Origin: a virus
DNA length: 29,290 nt
Strand: one strand, 5' to 3'
IMG/VR virus record: IMGVR_UViG_3300042868_007974
Coordinates: 1 to 29,290 of that record
Of the stretch, positions 4,420 to 23,795 are shown piece by piece (position 1 is the first letter of the stretch; each line of letters opens with the position of its first letter). The notes beneath the pieces were generated by a model. The model was not told where the DNA came from and did no database searches. It saw only the letters and a program-made list of their open reading frames with translations. The translations under genes and the position numbers were made by a program.

Positions 4420-4665
4420 TCAATCAATGTTAATAACAAGGCGGTCTGCTGTAAGCACGAGGTGGTTGCCCAGCTCGTCAGTGCCGATGGCAAAAATCTC
4501 TACACCCCTATACTTACCACTGCGTAGGTGCTGGGCACGATATGATAACGCTAGACTGCGGTCGCTTACCCCTAGGTTAGTAAACCCACCGTCTAACAGG
4601 CCGTTTAAAAACTCGATGGTCAGGATACGATTTTCACTGCCTTTAATTTCTGCGTGTCTTGGCAT
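4420..4665 (-). CDS. Hypothetical early protein downstream of hammerhead 1, 81 aa
   Basis: Starts MPRHAEIKGSENRILTIEFL and contains YRAQHLRSGKYRGVEIFAIG, reading as a mainly beta protein. The ATG at 4665 has GGAGG four bases upstream. An open frame continues to 4896 through the ribozyme, but that extension is low-complexity and contradicted by the ribosome-binding site. This is the first gene of the mRNA piece produced if the hammerhead at 4681-4732 cleaves; it sits 15 bases past the end of the ribozyme core. Confidence 0.7.
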   Translation of the reverse strand: MPRHAEIKGSENRILTIEFLNGLLDGGFTNLGVSDRSLALSYRAQHLRSGKYRGVEIFAIGTDELGNHLVLTADRLVINID

Positions 4666-4680
4666 ATAGCCTCCTATGTT

Positions 4681-4732
4681 GGTCTCATCAGTGCACGCAT
4701 TACGTGCATACCAGCTCACGCTGGTTTCGACC
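4681..4732 (-). ncRNA. Type II hammerhead ribozyme, copy 1
   Basis: Read on the minus strand, all hammerhead parts are present in type II order (open end at stem II). Stem II is GGTC (4732-4729) with GACC (4684-4681). The GAA core is at 4728-4726. Stem III is ACCAGC/GCTGGT, six pairs, closed by a GTGA tetraloop. The cleavage triplet is GTA, with cleavage expected between 4709 and 4708. Stem I is TGCACG/CGTGCA with loop TAATG, followed by the CTGATGA core (4691-4685). A15.1-U16.1 and C15.2-G16.2 are kept. The element starts four bases past the stop codon of the upstream gene and ends before GGAGG of the next. No stem I/stem II tertiary contact could be assigned by eye. Confidence 0.9.
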
Positions 4733-4735
4733 TGC

Positions 4736-4957
4736 TTACAGTATACCGTAGAGCGGTGTGCACTCCTGCACCCTGATCTCCAGCCCCGTGCGCTCGCGCT
4801 CGGCCTCGGCAAACTGCTCTGCCTCTGCCTTGGCTTTGAACGTGCGCTCTTTGAAATCGTGCTCACGCTTGAGTGCCAGCGTGCCCTTGTTGCCAAGGGT
4901 CTCGTACGTCTTCCAGCTCAGTTGCACGCTGTACTCTGTTTTGCCTGTGGTGATCAT
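4736..4957 (-). CDS. Hypothetical early protein between the two ribozymes, 73 aa
   Basis: Starts MITTGKTEYSVQLSWKTYET and continues with a long charged helix rich in Lys/Glu (FKERTFKAKAEAEQFAEAER). It ends YGIL, and its TAA stop is the first triplet of the sequence shared by both ribozyme copies. GGAG lies before the ATG at 4957, which overlaps the previous stop (ATGA). A longer frame to 5011 exists but lacks a Shine-Dalgarno. No known family recognised. Confidence 0.7.
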   Translation of the reverse strand: MITTGKTEYSVQLSWKTYETLGNKGTLALKREHDFKERTFKAKAEAEQFAEAERERTGLEIRVQECTPLYGIL

Positions 4958-5277
4958 GCGGTCTCCTTTGCGGTTATGAATTGAAAGTACTCGGGATTGA
5001 ACGCGCCCCATGCCTCTGCCTTGTCACCGATTAGGGTGCCAGTGTTGGTGCTATGGTCAAACACTGCTATGCAGTCCTGATCCAGCGCCGTAGCCAGTAT
5101 CGCAATACTGCCAGTGATAAAATCACACTGGATAATGACTGTTGGCTCGGCGCCGTCCTGACTGATACGGATCTGACGTACACCGCCGACGTGCTTTAGT
5201 GCCTGCACCAGTGTGAGCTCGACGGTGTTGCGCTGGTTTAAGAATGGATTGTCCTGCCCGATATTGATTGTGTACAT
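4954..5277 (-). CDS. Hypothetical early protein downstream of hammerhead 2, 107 aa
   Basis: Starts MYTINIGQDNPFLNQRNTVE and is mainly beta by pattern (RQIRISQDGAEPTVIIQCDF, then GSIAILATALDQDCIAVFDH). The start at 5277 has GAGGAG seven bases upstream. An open frame extends upstream to 5334 but would translate across the ribozyme, giving the unlikely sequence MATRYARDACTDETN, so it is rejected. First gene of the bicistronic piece expected between the two ribozyme cuts. Confidence 0.7.
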   Translation of the reverse strand: MYTINIGQDNPFLNQRNTVELTLVQALKHVGGVRQIRISQDGAEPTVIIQCDFITGSIAILATALDQDCIAVFDHSTNTGTLIGDKAEAWGAFNPEYFQFITAKETA

Positions 5278-5292
5278 AGTGCTCCTCGTGTT

Positions 5293-5344
5293 GGTCTCAT
5301 CAGTGCACGCATCACGTGCATACCGTGTCGCCACGGTTTCGACC
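5293..5344 (-). ncRNA. Type II hammerhead ribozyme, copy 2
   Basis: Same architecture and same 52-nt length as the copy at 4681-4732. On the minus strand: stem II GGTC/GACC, GAA core, stem III ACCGTG/CACGGT closed by a GCGA tetraloop, cleavage triplet GTA with cleavage expected between 5321 and 5320, stem I TGCACG/CGTGCA with loop TGATG, then CTGATGA. Compared with the other copy, three consecutive stem III pairs differ and all three remain paired (G-C to A-T, T-A to G-C, G-C to C-G), while core and stem I stay constant. This is covariation within one genome, strong support for a folded RNA. The loop remains a GNRA in both. Confidence 0.9.
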
Positions 5345-5347
5345 TGC

Positions 5348-5566
5348 TTATTTGACCTCTACTGTTAATAAATACTCGGGGTCTTCGCTTACATATAATT
5401 TGTAGGCTTGGACTAAATCGGCATCACTAAGTGCCTCAAACTCTGCCTCTATGCTTACCTCGTCACCCTCGGTAAACTCATCGTTTGCGTCACGATCTTC
5501 AATTTCAGACTGAACAAGCTGATCAATAATATCGTCACGACTAATAATGATGTGCTCTGTTGCCAT
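5348..5566 (-). CDS. First gene of the early operon, hypothetical acidic protein, 72 aa
   Basis: Starts MATEHIIISRDDIIDQLVQS and is strongly acidic throughout (DRDANDEFTEGDEVSIEAEF). No motif is recognised. AGGAG lies eight bases before the ATG. It is the promoter-proximal gene, about 265 bases after the predicted transcription start, and its TAA stop abuts hammerhead copy 2. Cleavage there would release a monocistronic mRNA consisting of the long leader plus this gene, which could give it an expression or stability different from the rest. Confidence 0.75.
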   Translation of the reverse strand: MATEHIIISRDDIIDQLVQSEIEDRDANDEFTEGDEVSIEAEFEALSDADLVQAYKLYVSEDPEYLLTVEVK

Positions 5567-5831
5567 GGTATAGCTCCTGTTGTTTGGTTAGTACTGCCTC
5601 GAGCGCACTGGTTAGAATGCGCTCTGAGCATTACTATCTGCCGACCGTTGAGACAGCCTACTCTGTCGGTATATCTTCTCTCACGCATCCTGTCATGAGG
5701 TCTGCCACACGTTTTACTTGGCTGGTACTTAGTCACCAAGAGCGCCGTATCGTGGCGCTAACCGTAGCAATCAGTCTGCGTATTGTAGTCATCCCGACTA
5801 CTCACTACTGCGACCAAGACTGCTAAACAAC
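5567..5831 (-). other. Structured early leader RNA, about 265 nt
   Basis: This stretch has no credible gene on either strand. On the minus-strand transcript several hairpins stand out: GTAGTC-GGGAT-GACTAC, AGCGCC-ACGATAC-GGCGCT, CTTGG...CCAAG, a CCGAC...GTCGG stem, and GAGCGCA-N10-TGCGCTC (a perfect seven-base stem about 40 bases before the first gene). No T-tract follows any of them, so they are not typical intrinsic terminators. No tRNA or known riboswitch could be fitted. It could be an mRNA-stabilising leader or an independent small RNA. Confidence 0.5.
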
Positions 5832-5837
5832 GTAGTT

Positions 5838-5867
5838 AGTATAGTGACTTTTGGTATCAAACGTCAA
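5838..5867 (-). promoter_or_regulatory. Sigma70-type early promoter
   Basis: On the minus strand TTGACG (5867-5862) is followed after 18 bases by TATACT (5843-5838), one mismatch each from the -35 and -10 consensus. The predicted transcription start is near 5831. It is placed upstream of the whole minus-strand gene block and is the only strong sigma70-like promoter I see for it. Confidence 0.7.
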
Positions 5868-6791: not shown

Positions 6792-7100
6792 ATGAACAAA
6801 TACGTCTACCAGATACAGGGCGCGCTGGAAAGTAAACAAGGCCAGCTATTAGGGCTTCGTGTTTTGGTATGCGATGTGTATAACTTTGATTCGGTTGATG
6901 TGCCTGTAGAGGTACTCGATTCAGAAACCGCAAAGTACTTGCAGTTCAGACTTTCCATCACCGCCGAATCGGTTAACATTGCATCACTACCGGTCGAAAT
7001 ACAAAATAGGATACGCGCGCCGTTAGGGCGATGGCTGGACCACTGGGTCCTCGATAATTTTTATGGCGATAACAGCAAATACAAAAATACTAACTCTTGA
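6792..7100 (+). CDS. Hypothetical first late gene, 102 aa
   Basis: Begins MNKYVYQIQGALESKQGQLL and reads as a mixed alpha/beta protein with no recognised motif. It stands where a small terminase subunit would be expected, directly upstream of the terminase region, but nothing in the sequence (no helix-turn-helix seen) proves this. It starts right at late promoter copy A without a Shine-Dalgarno and overlaps the next gene by 38 bases in another frame. Confidence 0.65.
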   Translation: MNKYVYQIQGALESKQGQLLGLRVLVCDVYNFDSVDVPVEVLDSETAKYLQFRLSITAESVNIASLPVEIQNRIRAPLGRWLDHWVLDNFYGDNSKYKNTNS

Positions 7101-8055
7101 CTATTGGAAACACGCAAGCCACCTGCAGGTAGGTGATTACGTCTTTGATGCAAAAGGTAAGTTAGTAAAGGTCACAATGGTTCAAGAATATCATAGCGCA
7201 AAATGCTATGAGGTAACATTCAACGACTATCTCTCCGTCACTGGCGATTCTAAGCTAGCATTCCCCACAGAAAACTTTAAGTACCGCAATCGCTTGATGG
7301 CATACAAGGGCAAGCTACGATTTCGACGCCCACTTAGGCCATTAAGCACTGAGGACCTGCTAGTAACTCCCCTGGTAAACAAAGCCAACCGCAAAGTCAT
7401 CTCGGTTCCCACAGCCAACCCGCTCTGTTTGCCGCACAAAGACCTACCAGTGCCGCCGTTTCTGTTTGGCTTTTGGTTTTTCTCCCGCAAGTCCACTGGA
7501 AAAATGGTACCAGCACGCGGCACAGCAGAATTGGTGCACGAAACATTCCGAGATCACGGTTACAAGGTGCGCGTTTGTGGTATTACCCGCACTGGCGAGC
7601 GTGAATTTTCTGTTACGCCTAAGATTGAGTCGCAGCTAATCCCCAATATCCCCAAAGTAATAACAAATAACTACTTACTTGCGTCTGAAGAGCAGCGAAT
7701 AATGTTACTCAGAGGCATCATTTGCGCCAAAAACCGCCAATATTGTGAGCGAACGGACACATTTCGCTTTTCTTCTAAGAATTACGACACCGTGCGGCGC
7801 GTTCAGGCCCTGGCAGAGTCGCTTGGGTGTAAAACTTCCATGCAATCGGACAGTAACAAAAAGGATTACACCGTAAAATTTAAATCTCGGATCAATTTAC
7901 ACCCCGAGCAGGCATCACCGCCGGTAAAAATACACTATGGCCGCAGGTACATCGCAAAAGTGGACAAAATTCCAGCCCAATTGTGTGTGCACATTGAAAC
8001 CGACGGCCCAGACGGCACCATTTTAGCAGGAGAAGGATTTATAGCATGTCTTTAA
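7063..8055 (+). CDS. Degenerate intein-like Hint/LAGLIDADG protein, 330 aa
   Basis: The order of blocks is that of an intein with a homing endonuclease. Residues 6-37 resemble Hint block A (NTKILTLDYWKHASHLQVGD), residues 48-66 block B (CYEVTFNDYLSVTGDSKLAF), about 132-270 a LAGLIDADG-type region (FLFGFWFF, then RIMLLRGIICAKN and the typical FSSKNYDTVRRVQALAESLG), and 296-330 blocks F/G (YIAKVDKIP, then GTILAGEGFIACL). Key catalytic residues seem lost: no N-terminal Cys/Ser, the block B His is replaced by Ser63, the C-terminal His-Asn is absent, and the acidic residues of both LAGLIDADG helices are not seen. It is a complete stand-alone gene, so it cannot splice in the normal way. Its stop overlaps the large terminase start by ten bases; inteins in large terminases are known, which suggests a relic or a repurposed protein. 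No Shine-Dalgarno is evident. Confidence 0.7.
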   Translation: MAITANTKILTLDYWKHASHLQVGDYVFDAKGKLVKVTMVQEYHSAKCYEVTFNDYLSVTGDSKLAFPTENFKYRNRLMAYKGKLRFRRPLRPLSTEDLLVTPLVNKANRKVISVPTANPLCLPHKDLPVPPFLFGFWFFSRKSTGKMVPARGTAELVHETFRDHGYKVRVCGITRTGEREFSVTPKIESQLIPNIPKVITNNYLLASEEQRIMLLRGIICAKNRQYCERTDTFRFSSKNYDTVRRVQALAESLGCKTSMQSDSNKKDYTVKFKSRINLHPEQASPPVKIHYGRRYIAKVDKIPAQLCVHIETDGPDGTILAGEGFIACL

Positions 8056-9491
8056 CACAAAAACAAGCGCAGACGCTTACCAAATTTGCAGAGGCACACA
8101 AGCACTGGCCCAAGCAGCAGCTTGACGCCGCTATTTGGCAGGTCAAGTGGGCGCTGCAGGCACTACCACACCAAAAAGAACCAGATGATGGAGAATACGA
8201 TACCTTTCTTATGCTTGCCGGCCGCGGATCGGGCAAGACGCACACTGCTAGCCACTGGATTGGCATTCGTGCTTGGAGGTATGACAACACCCGCTGGCTC
8301 GTCACCGCTCCCACCTCAAACGATATACGCGCAACTTGTTTTGAGGGAGACAGTGGACTTCTCAATATCATTCCCCCGTCACTTATTCGCGATTACAACA
8401 AGTCCCTCTTTGAGATTACCCTCACCAACGGATCCATCATTCAGGGTATACCCGCCTCTGAGCCAGAACGGTATCGTGGTAAGCAATACCATGGTGCCTG
8501 GTTCGACGAGCTGTGTGCGTTTGATTACCTCGATGCTGCCTACGACGGCGTACAGTTTACCCTCCGTCTTAAAGACCCCCGCATCCCCCGCGTGCAGCAA
8601 ATTATTACCACCACACCCAAACCAAAAGAATTAATTGTAGATCTTAACGAGGGTAAGGTAGGTGGTGACGTGTATGTCGTTAACGCCTCGTCGTTTGACA
8701 ACCGGGAAAACCTCTCAGAAACCTTTTTTAAGCAGCTAGATACCTACGAGGGTACCGACCTTGGAAGACAGGAGATCTACGGCGAGATCCTGGATCCGGA
8801 ATCTTCGGGTATTGTCAAACGCAAACAATTCCGCATGTGGCCGGCCAATAAGCCAACCCCTACGCTTGAGTATGTCATTGCATCGTACGATCCGGCGACT
8901 TCTGAAAAGACAATGAACGACCCCACGGCGTGTGAGGTCTGGGGCGTGTTTGATAGGGAAGACGCTGGCACGTGCGTCATGCTGCTGGATTGCTGGGATG
9001 CGCATCTTTCGTATCCAGAACTACGCCGCAAGGTGATTGATGACTTTAAAGAAGTTGTGTATGGTGCGGACAATGACTTCGGTAAGGGCAAAAAAGCCGA
9101 CCTGATACTGATGGAAGATAAGTCGGCGGGTATCTCCCTGATCCAGGAGCTCCAAGGCGCGGGTGTGCCGGTGCGGGGATACAACCCAGGCCGCGCGGAT
9201 AAAATCCAGCGATTAAACATTGTCGCACCGCTTATTGCTAAGGGTAAGGTATTCATACCGGAGGACCCAGACAAACCTGGTGAGTTCGCTCCTTGGGCTA
9301 AGAAGTTCATCCGGCAGGTTTGCTCGTTTCCTGAGGCTGGCGGCCATGACGACTACGTTGATGCCCTTTCACAGGCCCTACGCGTGCTCAGGGACAGCGG
9401 TTGGTTGCAACTGGACCCCCTGCCCCCGCGCGACTATGATTACGCCGATGACGACTCCAGAAAGAAGTTTGCCAATCCCTACAGCCAATAA
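8046..9491 (+). CDS. terL: Terminase large subunit, 481 aa
   Basis: The ATP-driven motor and nuclease that packages phage DNA into the prohead through the portal. Residues 59-67 are the Walker A loop (GRGSGKTHT), 149-155 Walker B with the catalytic acid (HGAWFDE), and TTTPKPKE near 188-195 is the coupling motif region. The C-terminal nuclease domain of RNase H fold starts at ASYDPATSE (Asp282), with further acids at LILMEDKSAG (Glu357/Asp358) and GGHDDYVDAL (Asp435/Asp436). The length is normal for the Terminase_6-like group and no intein interrupts it. Its start overlaps the Hint gene; no clear Shine-Dalgarno, so coupling is likely. Confidence 0.95.
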   Translation: MSLTQKQAQTLTKFAEAHKHWPKQQLDAAIWQVKWALQALPHQKEPDDGEYDTFLMLAGRGSGKTHTASHWIGIRAWRYDNTRWLVTAPTSNDIRATCFEGDSGLLNIIPPSLIRDYNKSLFEITLTNGSIIQGIPASEPERYRGKQYHGAWFDELCAFDYLDAAYDGVQFTLRLKDPRIPRVQQIITTTPKPKELIVDLNEGKVGGDVYVVNASSFDNRENLSETFFKQLDTYEGTDLGRQEIYGEILDPESSGIVKRKQFRMWPANKPTPTLEYVIASYDPATSEKTMNDPTACEVWGVFDREDAGTCVMLLDCWDAHLSYPELRRKVIDDFKEVVYGADNDFGKGKKADLILMEDKSAGISLIQELQGAGVPVRGYNPGRADKIQRLNIVAPLIAKGKVFIPEDPDKPGEFAPWAKKFIRQVCSFPEAGGHDDYVDALSQALRVLRDSGWLQLDPLPPRDYDYADDDSRKKFANPYSQ

Positions 9492-17925: not shown

Positions 17926-22505
<4,580 letters not shown>

Positions 22506-22751: not shown

Positions 22752-23795
22752 ATGAAAATTGCTGTATACGCAATTAGCAAAAACGAAGAACAATTTGTCA
22801 AAAGATTCTGTGAGTCAGCCAAAGAAGCTGACATTGTTTTAATAGCGGACACGGGATCTACTGACAACACCGTTCAACTAGCAAAAGAGTGCGGCGCGCA
22901 GGTGTACACGATTGGTATTAACCCGTGGCGTTTTGATAAAGCCCGCGATACTGCACTAGCACTGATTCCAATGGACGTAGATGTTTGCGTTTCTTTGGAT
23001 TTAGACGAGGAGTTGCAGCCAGGTTGGAGAGAAGAAATTGAACGCGTTTGGAAAGAAGATACCACCAGATTGCGTTACAAGTTTGACTGGGGTGCTGGGA
23101 TTGCGTTTTTCTATGAGAAAATCCACCACCGCAAAGGGTATCACTGGCATCATCCATGCCATGAATACCCAGTACCAGATGTAAGAACTAAAGAAGTATG
23201 GGCGCAGACGGATATGCTGCTTGTGATCCACAAACCGGATCCAACCAAATCCCGTGGTCAGTATTTAGACTTGCTGTTATTGGCAGTCACCGAAGATCCA
23301 CGCTGCCCACGCAACGCATTTTACTACGCTAGAGAATTGACGTTCTATAGCAAGTGGCAAGAAGCCGTTGACGCATTAAACAAGTATTTAGCAATGCCAG
23401 AAGCTACATGGCCTAATGAGCGTTGCTATGCAATGCGTCTATTAGGTAAATCGTACGATGAGCTGGGCTGGGACGGATTAGTTTGGCACCGTCGCGCATG
23501 CGCGGAGGCGCCCAACACACGCGAACCATGGTGTGATTTAGCGATGGCTTGCTACCGTAAAGGATTGTGGGAAGAGTGCTTTGCAGCAGCAAGCAACGCA
23601 CTGAAGATTAAAAACAAAGAGGCTGTATATACAATGGATCCAACAGTATGGGGTGCACGTCCACACGATCTATTGTCTATTGCGGCGCATATGTTAGGCA
23701 TGAAAGAAGAAGCAATTAAGCATGGCGAGATAGCACTTCAGTTTGAACCTAACAATGAACGATTAGTAAAAAACTTGGAATATTACAAGGCTTAA
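22752..23795 (+). CDS. GT2-type glycosyltransferase with C-terminal TPR-like repeats, 347 aa
   Basis: Residues 8-20 (ISKNEEQFVKRFC) and 33-40 (DTGSTDNT) are the nucleotide-sugar binding start of a GT-A/GT2 fold, and LDLDEEL (Asp83, Asp85) gives the metal-binding DxD. A His-rich patch (KIHHRKGYHWHHPCHEYP) follows near residue 122-140. From about 190 to the end there are TPR-like helical pairs (YARELTFYSKWQEAVDALNK, then LAMACYRKGLWEECFAAASN and AHMLGMKEEAIKHGEIALQF). This domain order is known in glycosyltransferases such as SunS-type enzymes. AAAGG precedes the ATG. It stands between two fibre genes, so the natural substrate may be a fibre; a host-surface target is the alternative. Confidence 0.85.
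   Translation: MKIAVYAISKNEEQFVKRFCESAKEADIVLIADTGSTDNTVQLAKECGAQVYTIGINPWRFDKARDTALALIPMDVDVCVSLDLDEELQPGWREEIERVWKEDTTRLRYKFDWGAGIAFFYEKIHHRKGYHWHHPCHEYPVPDVRTKEVWAQTDMLLVIHKPDPTKSRGQYLDLLLLAVTEDPRCPRNAFYYARELTFYSKWQEAVDALNKYLAMPEATWPNERCYAMRLLGKSYDELGWDGLVWHRRACAEAPNTREPWCDLAMACYRKGLWEECFAAASNALKIKNKEAVYTMDPTVWGARPHDLLSIAAHMLGMKEEAIKHGEIALQFEPNNERLVKNLEYYKA

Follow-up and report, generated by a model that had tools for sequence, protein, structure and literature searches.

Two type II hammerhead ribozymes at gene junctions of a leftward phage operon, and the sub-family to which they belong

Two 52-nt elements on the minus strand of a 29,290-nt record from an uncultured phage (the whole stretch of DNA analysed here, hereafter the window) have the sequence, predicted fold and comparative record of type II hammerhead ribozymes, each set between a small gene's stop codon and the Shine-Dalgarno sequence that serves the following gene. 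It is probable (about 0.8 in our estimate) that both self-cleave in cis, constitutively, and thereby split a leftward polycistronic transcript between its cistrons. Sequence, predicted structure, covariation, position and spread were obtained in this work, while cleavage and the chemistry of the resulting ends are carried over from the hammerhead family.

Organization of the operon

Along the minus strand the order is promoter, leader, gene A, the hammerhead HHR2, gene B, gene C, the hammerhead HHR1 and gene D. The features of this region, in the direction of transcription, are the following (R1 is a covariance model described below).

5348-5566, minus: gene A, 72 aa, first cistron past the leader
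5348-5350, minus: stop codon TAA ending gene A, 3 nt upstream of HHR2
5345, minus: A immediately 5' of HHR2 stem II
5293-5344, minus: HHR2, type II hammerhead ribozyme (pattern and fold; model R1 71.6 bits, E 5.3e-20)
5341-5344/5293-5296, minus: HHR2 stem II
5338-5340, minus: HHR2 GAA
5322-5337, minus: HHR2 stem III hairpin, loop GCGA
5321, minus: HHR2 A17
5321/5320, minus: HHR2 predicted cleavage site, 3' of A17, from the H17 position in the core
5304-5320, minus: HHR2 stem I hairpin
5297-5303, minus: HHR2 CTGATGA
5282-5286, minus: AGGAG, Shine-Dalgarno sequence for gene B, 6 nt downstream of HHR2
4954-5277, minus: gene B (PHROG 11722), 107 aa, weakly similar to S-adenosylmethionine lyases of phages
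4736-4957, minus: gene C, 73 aa, ATGA start overlapping the gene B stop
4736-4738, minus: stop codon TAA ending gene C, 3 nt upstream of HHR1
4733, minus: A immediately 5' of HHR1 stem II (A in 229/233 relatives)
4681-4732, minus: HHR1, type II hammerhead ribozyme (pattern and fold; model R1 72.8 bits, E 2.4e-20)
4729-4732/4681-4684, minus: HHR1 stem II
4726-4728, minus: HHR1 GAA
4710-4725, minus: HHR1 stem III hairpin, loop GTGA
4709, minus: HHR1 A17
4709/4708, minus: HHR1 predicted cleavage site, 3' of A17, from the H17 position in the core
4692-4708, minus: HHR1 stem I hairpin
4685-4691, minus: HHR1 CTGATGA
4670-4675, minus: AGGAGG, Shine-Dalgarno sequence for gene D, 5 nt downstream of HHR1
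4420-4665, minus: gene D, 81 aa

A sigma-70-like promoter (5867-5838, minus strand, TTGACG-N18-TATACT), conserved in relatives, stands at the head of the operon. The initial annotation had spoken of early genes, an inference supported by this promoter, by a sigma-factor gene (355-945) and by the leftward small open reading frames (ORFs), all of which lie opposite to the structural genes. A homologue search found no relatives of gene A. The junction between genes B and C is an ATGA overlap and carries no ribozyme.

The leader itself (5566-5867, minus strand; element at 5589-5636), conserved and structured, runs for about 250 nt past the promoter and closes with TAGTAATGCTCA-hairpin-GAGGCAGTACTA immediately ahead of gene A. 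Its element recurs in 52 viral contigs, in 33 different sequences whose terminal hairpin covaries and whose flanks hardly vary, and matches no Rfam family; it could be an antitermination signal or another cis-acting RNA. Its link to the promoter is not strict, since a second copy in contig L177 lies 42 nt past an ORF, and in L170, L171 and L175 a longer conserved insertion precedes it.

Structure of the two elements

Both copies run, 5' to 3', from the stem II strand GGTC through G12 A13 A14, A15.1, a stem III with a GNRA loop, G16.2 U16.1 A17 and the 17-nt stem I hairpin to CTGATGA and the closing stem II strand GACC. From this order of segments it follows that stem II is the open helix and that stems I and III are closed by loops, the type II arrangement. 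The conserved core (C3U4G5A6N7G8A9, G12A13A14, the A15.1-U16.1 pair and H17) is complete in both, so that the claim of every conserved residue in type II order, made from the sequence at first reading, holds to the letter, and a pattern search returned both elements at the positions originally proposed. The minimum-free-energy fold coincides exactly with the hammerhead secondary structure (z of -4.3 and -3.0 for the two copies), and the scissile bonds first predicted are correctly placed relative to the core. Three adjacent stem III pairs differ between HHR1 and HHR2 (A-U/G-C, G-C/U-A and C-G/G-C), all of them compensated as had been noted, and both loops keep the GNRA form (GTGA and GCGA), while stem I is the same in the two copies except for one loop base. 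Their cleavage triplet, GUA, is a minority form found in 31 of 226 relatives, which, like the lack of a drawable pseudoknot described below, counts against the cleavage reading. No further element of this kind occurs in the 29,290-base record, and the two copies, 87% identical across 62 nt, flank the B-C gene block.

In natural hammerheads loop I touches stem II, and a pseudoknot between loop I and the 3' tail is reportedly required for speed in one type II ribozyme. No such pseudoknot of at least four pairs can be drawn in the window copies (UAAUG or UGAUG against AACAUAGG or AACACGAGG), three pairs being the maximum. This does not exclude type II, because the feature belongs to the majority rather than all of the published members. 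By analogy with natural hammerheads, the A preceding stem II and the conserved U of loop I may be put forward as candidate tertiary partners, a guess given that the four-pair pseudoknot cannot be drawn.

Detection and the limits of the Rfam model

The full 52-nt pattern found no match in 100 shuffled sequences. A looser core pattern gave three matches where 1.06 were expected, which taken alone is only weakly unexpected, so that the weight of the identification rests on the complete structure and on the relatives. Rfam scans of the whole window or of 1.2-kb pieces, at the gathering threshold and at E<=10, reported no hammerhead. When the scan was confined to the 77 bp at 5280-5356, RF02276 (Hammerhead_II) aligned HHR2 end to end at 22.8 bits, against a gathering score of 37. 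The initial annotation had turned to this Rfam model for its computational check, and nothing indeed rises above gathering; the hammerhead reading nonetheless stands, since the model describes another architecture, in which stem II has 2 bp and loop I is longer, and also under-scores the best copies of the relative L102 (six matches of 26-35 bits, all under the 37-bit gathering score). A covariance model, R1, was trained on 47 diverse relatives with the window left out, and it recovers both window copies with E of about 1e-20 and nothing else up to E = 10. By this model the window copies belong to the sub-family defined here by a GGUC/GACC stem II, an A before stem II and a UNANG loop I. Surveys that depend on Rfam alone overlook hundreds of such copies, because the sub-type scores under the Rfam threshold, and R1 was built as a model for them.

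Relatives, spread and covariation

Relatives were sought with a pattern in which the core and stem II were fixed and stems I and III left free. This pattern matched at least 119 viral contigs, and among the matches listed stems I and III were both formed in 118 of 119, so that the element is present in at least 118 viral contigs, many of them of common ancestry and some near-duplicates. A structural scan of the loci collected to that stage gave 255 matches, compared with none in the reversed sequences. In 47 diverse copies, the window excluded, 13 of 16 pairs show two-sided changes, and the covariation score is 0.75 as against 0.14 for shuffled copies and 0.05-0.10 with slid partners; these covariation counts are inflated because the copies had been chosen for pairing, which makes the 118 of 119 the fairer control. 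Together with the core and the predicted fold, this comparative evidence supports the type II hammerhead assignment with which the analysis began.

Stem II of the relatives has four base pairs, nearly always GGUC/GACC, and is directly preceded by A in 229 of 233 copies, while the stem I hairpin has 17 nt, six pairs and a UNANG loop whose U is kept in 201 of 203. The unpaired core bases are constant in hundreds of copies and the stems vary. In one relative (L157) HHR2 is identical at all 52 positions while the neighbouring protein B is 65% identical.

The ribozyme itself led to a cultured phage with a related element, Aphanizomenon phage vB_AphaS-CL131, where a type II hammerhead with a 3-bp stem II and a larger loop I occupies positions 7955-8014 (L122). 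The annotated start of Cl131_gp126 falls inside this hammerhead, and a better start (AGGAGGAATATG) is available downstream. A search for cultured relatives of the window by DNA similarity gave a weak terminase match only, and a match to Rhizobium phage RL38J1 was set aside, having no hammerhead. The same sub-type, often in two copies per contig, was also seen in GTDB contigs (L125-L153) binned with Gastranaerophilales, Synergistaceae, Clostridia and others; 26 of 30 pattern matches in them are structurally valid, and these contigs are probably prophages.

A core variant with an inserted nucleotide

Both window copies have the canonical core, with no residue inserted after A9. Orthologues of gene D in L167-L173 are preceded by a hammerhead in which one additional U separates A9 from stem II. 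Of the distinct structural copies with a residue inserted between A9 and G10.1, 97 have U, one has A and none has C or G. Scans of viral contigs agree, with 66 stretches of the U-inserted form to two for A, C and G together; all stems are formed in 63 of the 66 U-inserted stretches and in neither of the other two. In a viroid hammerhead an extra A at this position makes cleavage moderately slower, C or G is very harmful, and U makes it 3-4 fold faster (review PMC3705267, after De la Pena and Flores 2001). The natural counts follow this order of rates (U, then A, then C/G), which indicates that catalysis in the phage RNAs is probably under selection. The core insertion is the best indirect argument that these phage RNAs are maintained for cleavage.

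Position between genes

Each window ribozyme fills its intergenic gap, beginning 3 nt past the TAA of the preceding gene and ending 5-6 nt ahead of the next Shine-Dalgarno sequence. This placement is general. In 73% of the 226 copies an ORF of 30 codons or more has its stop codon at -1 to 6 nt from stem II, versus 7% for random positions on the same strands, and a Shine-Dalgarno sequence with a start codon follows within 40 nt in 78%, versus 10% in the control. In 35 copies a TAG stop shares the first G of the ribozyme.

It is tempting to read this packing as a form of gating by translation, in which a ribosome terminating on the upstream cistron would mask GAA together with the preceding stem II strand and so prevent folding, so that cleavage would proceed only while that cistron is untranslated and the ribozyme would in effect read ribosome traffic. 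The position of the stop codons speaks in favour of this proposal, and the TAG stops that borrow the first ribozyme base point to a joint constraint, but compact phage genomes could produce tight packing by themselves, and we hold the proposal to be a tentative one, well short of an even chance. More speculative is a generalization to a large phage group, whose early operons would share a gene-independent separator made of stop codon, type II hammerhead and Shine-Dalgarno sequence, ribosome-gated and available with two interchangeable cores (canonical, or with U after A9); this we think doubtful as a whole. Were it true, the hammerhead would be a ribosome-sensitive device for intercistronic processing and not a curiosity.

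What the ribozyme accompanies is best seen from gene B. In L154, L155 and L158-L163 gene B comes directly after the leader, and no hammerhead lies upstream of it; in L156, L157, L164-L166 and the window another gene precedes it, and a hammerhead always lies upstream, a comparison that includes near-duplicate contigs and reduces to about four distinct arrangements of the first kind and six of the second. Contigs first fetched by the leader alone tell a similar story: 16 of 21 carry a hammerhead further down on the same strand, and in no case does the opposite strand carry one. In three of the contigs that lack a hammerhead (L247, L257 and L258), B or a relative of B comes first, and other short gene gaps are present. 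These observations suggest that the ribozyme follows gene junctions and not one particular gene.

Such behaviour bears on another proposal, that of a gene-specific switch, whereby cleavage would expose or remove structure at the downstream Shine-Dalgarno sequence and so control that gene. The short distance of 5-6 nt between the window ribozymes and this sequence would suit a switch, as would the tails of 26 of 226 relatives, where the sequence ATCAG is complementary to the core and would permit an alternative hairpin after cleavage. However, predicted accessibility of the Shine-Dalgarno sequence rises only from 0.54 to 0.59 on cleavage over 167 copies and is unchanged for the window copies, which argues against a simple on-switch; the window tails lack ATCAG; and an element that tracks junctions is ill suited to the control of any one gene. 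We therefore regard a gene-specific switch as improbable. The ATCAG tail was also considered as a general post-cleavage switch and rejected, its enrichment being confined to a subset (five or more pairs in 20% of copies versus 9% when shuffled) to which the window does not belong. Where it occurs (e.g., L006, L035, L047, L064), ATCAG directly follows stem II and is complementary to the core CTGAT, and one L047 copy has the core CTGAC with the tail GTCAG, both changed; tail-core pairing as an alternative hairpin after cleavage is possible in such cases.

Very improbable is a structural role without catalysis, in which intergenic double stem-loops or DNA joints for the recombination of gene cassettes would carry the core as a relic, for although copies of such similarity flanking a gene block are what recombination joints might look like, the unpaired core is kept in hundreds of copies while the stems change, and the U-only insertion follows catalytic tolerance (PMC3705267).

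Proposed processing of the transcript

According to the preferred reading, constitutive self-cleavage in cis, each ribozyme would fold between the upstream stop codon and the next Shine-Dalgarno sequence and cut 3' of A17. Two cuts would yield three messages, namely the leader with gene A, genes B and C, and gene D onward, keeping the translationally coupled B and C on one piece. Hammerhead cleavage 3' of H17 yields a 2',3'-cyclic phosphate and a 5'-OH. The upstream product would accordingly end at its 3' side in the stem III hairpin seen in the predicted fold, with a cyclic phosphate expected from the chemistry of the family, and the downstream product would have stem I at its very first nucleotide, bearing a 5'-OH, with the Shine-Dalgarno region beyond the hairpin left open. 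Decay that depends on the 5' end uses a 5' phosphate. With stem-loops on both new ends and no 5' phosphate on the downstream piece, the benefit to the phage would likely be that each block is stabilised and translated separately from the others. Since religation is also among the reactions of hammerheads, products that are circular or spliced can be imagined, although none turned up in the 2011 study (PMC3088659).

Other genes of the record

The product of gene B scores E 0.0036 against Pfam PF23780, under the family cut-off, and its best match among PDB profiles is a phage S-adenosylmethionine (SAM) lyase at E 0.25. The structure predicted for it, with a mean pLDDT of 85.6, resembles uncharacterised proteins from phages of Achromobacter, Ralstonia and Curvibacter at E 1.8e-8 to 1.3e-5 and has a weak match to a SAM hydrolase at E 2e-3, and a fold search of the PDB gave nothing at E<=0.001, hence no significant relative of solved structure. 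Conserved EPTVII and LDQDC motifs are present. A distant likeness to phage SAM lyases is suggestive only. SAM lyases are anti-restriction enzymes of phages, and gene B is possibly an early anti-restriction protein. Hammerheads adjoin another anti-restriction gene, ardA (PMC3088659).

On the plus strand, two overlapping ORFs (7063-8055 and 8046-9491) match different parts of terminase large subunits, so that the terminase appears split or frameshifted. A 1405-aa ORF (18288-22505, plus strand) consists mostly of GPT-type collagen-like triplet repeats with a 9-nt DNA period and is probably a tail fibre; a glycosyltransferase-like gene (22752-23795) follows it.

Comparison with known systems

Clustered prophage hammerheads, type II among them, were described by Perreault et al. 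in 2011, who proposed that they cut long phage transcripts, and some clustered phage-type hammerheads self-cleave in vitro and in E. coli (PMC3088659). Since clustering, proposed role and cleavage were all published then, the window copies add to an established type II class. The initial annotation had thought two hammerheads in one early operon worth describing; two are indeed present, but finding two per operon is usual and had already been reported by the same study (PMC3088659). The role of hammerheads in phages was still called open by a review of 2017 (PMC6155905).

A literature search found nothing on the placement of phage hammerheads relative to stop codons and Shine-Dalgarno sequences. 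In the papers compared, we likewise found no description of the GGUC/GACC-UNANG sub-family, of quantified stop/Shine-Dalgarno packing, of the junction rule or of the U insertion in phages; some of the copies found here may already be present in the alignments of the 2011 study (PMC3088659). Together, the locus and its relatives make the role of phage hammerheads testable, through the tracking of junctions, the packing against stop codons and ribosome-binding sites, and the viroid-like tolerance of the core.

The clusters of 2011 are the closest parallel, in that several hammerheads of the type II permutation flank single genes or short blocks in one transcript, and they too were read as processing into gene-length mRNAs (PMC3088659). 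The order of core segments in the window elements is that of RF02276. The published type II consensus includes the loop I/3'-tail pseudoknot (PMC3088659), which cannot be drawn in the window copies, and the sub-type of the window has a 4-bp GGUC/GACC stem II and a short UNANG loop I, in contrast to the 2-bp stem II of the Rfam model. The plus-strand hammerhead of chrysanthemum chlorotic mottle viroid has an extra residue between A9 and G10.1, like the phage relatives and unlike the window copies, although this is a plant viroid with A at the extra position, where the phages have almost exclusively U. A further parallel is HHphage of the haloviruses HF1 and HF2, a hammerhead that precedes the start codon of an early phage gene by 13 nt and for which an in vivo 5' end lies within 3 nt of the cleavage site (PMC3088659). 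It differs from the window elements in being a core variant in a high-salt archaeal virus and in standing ahead of the first ORF of its transcript, whereas HHR1 and HHR2 each stand between two.
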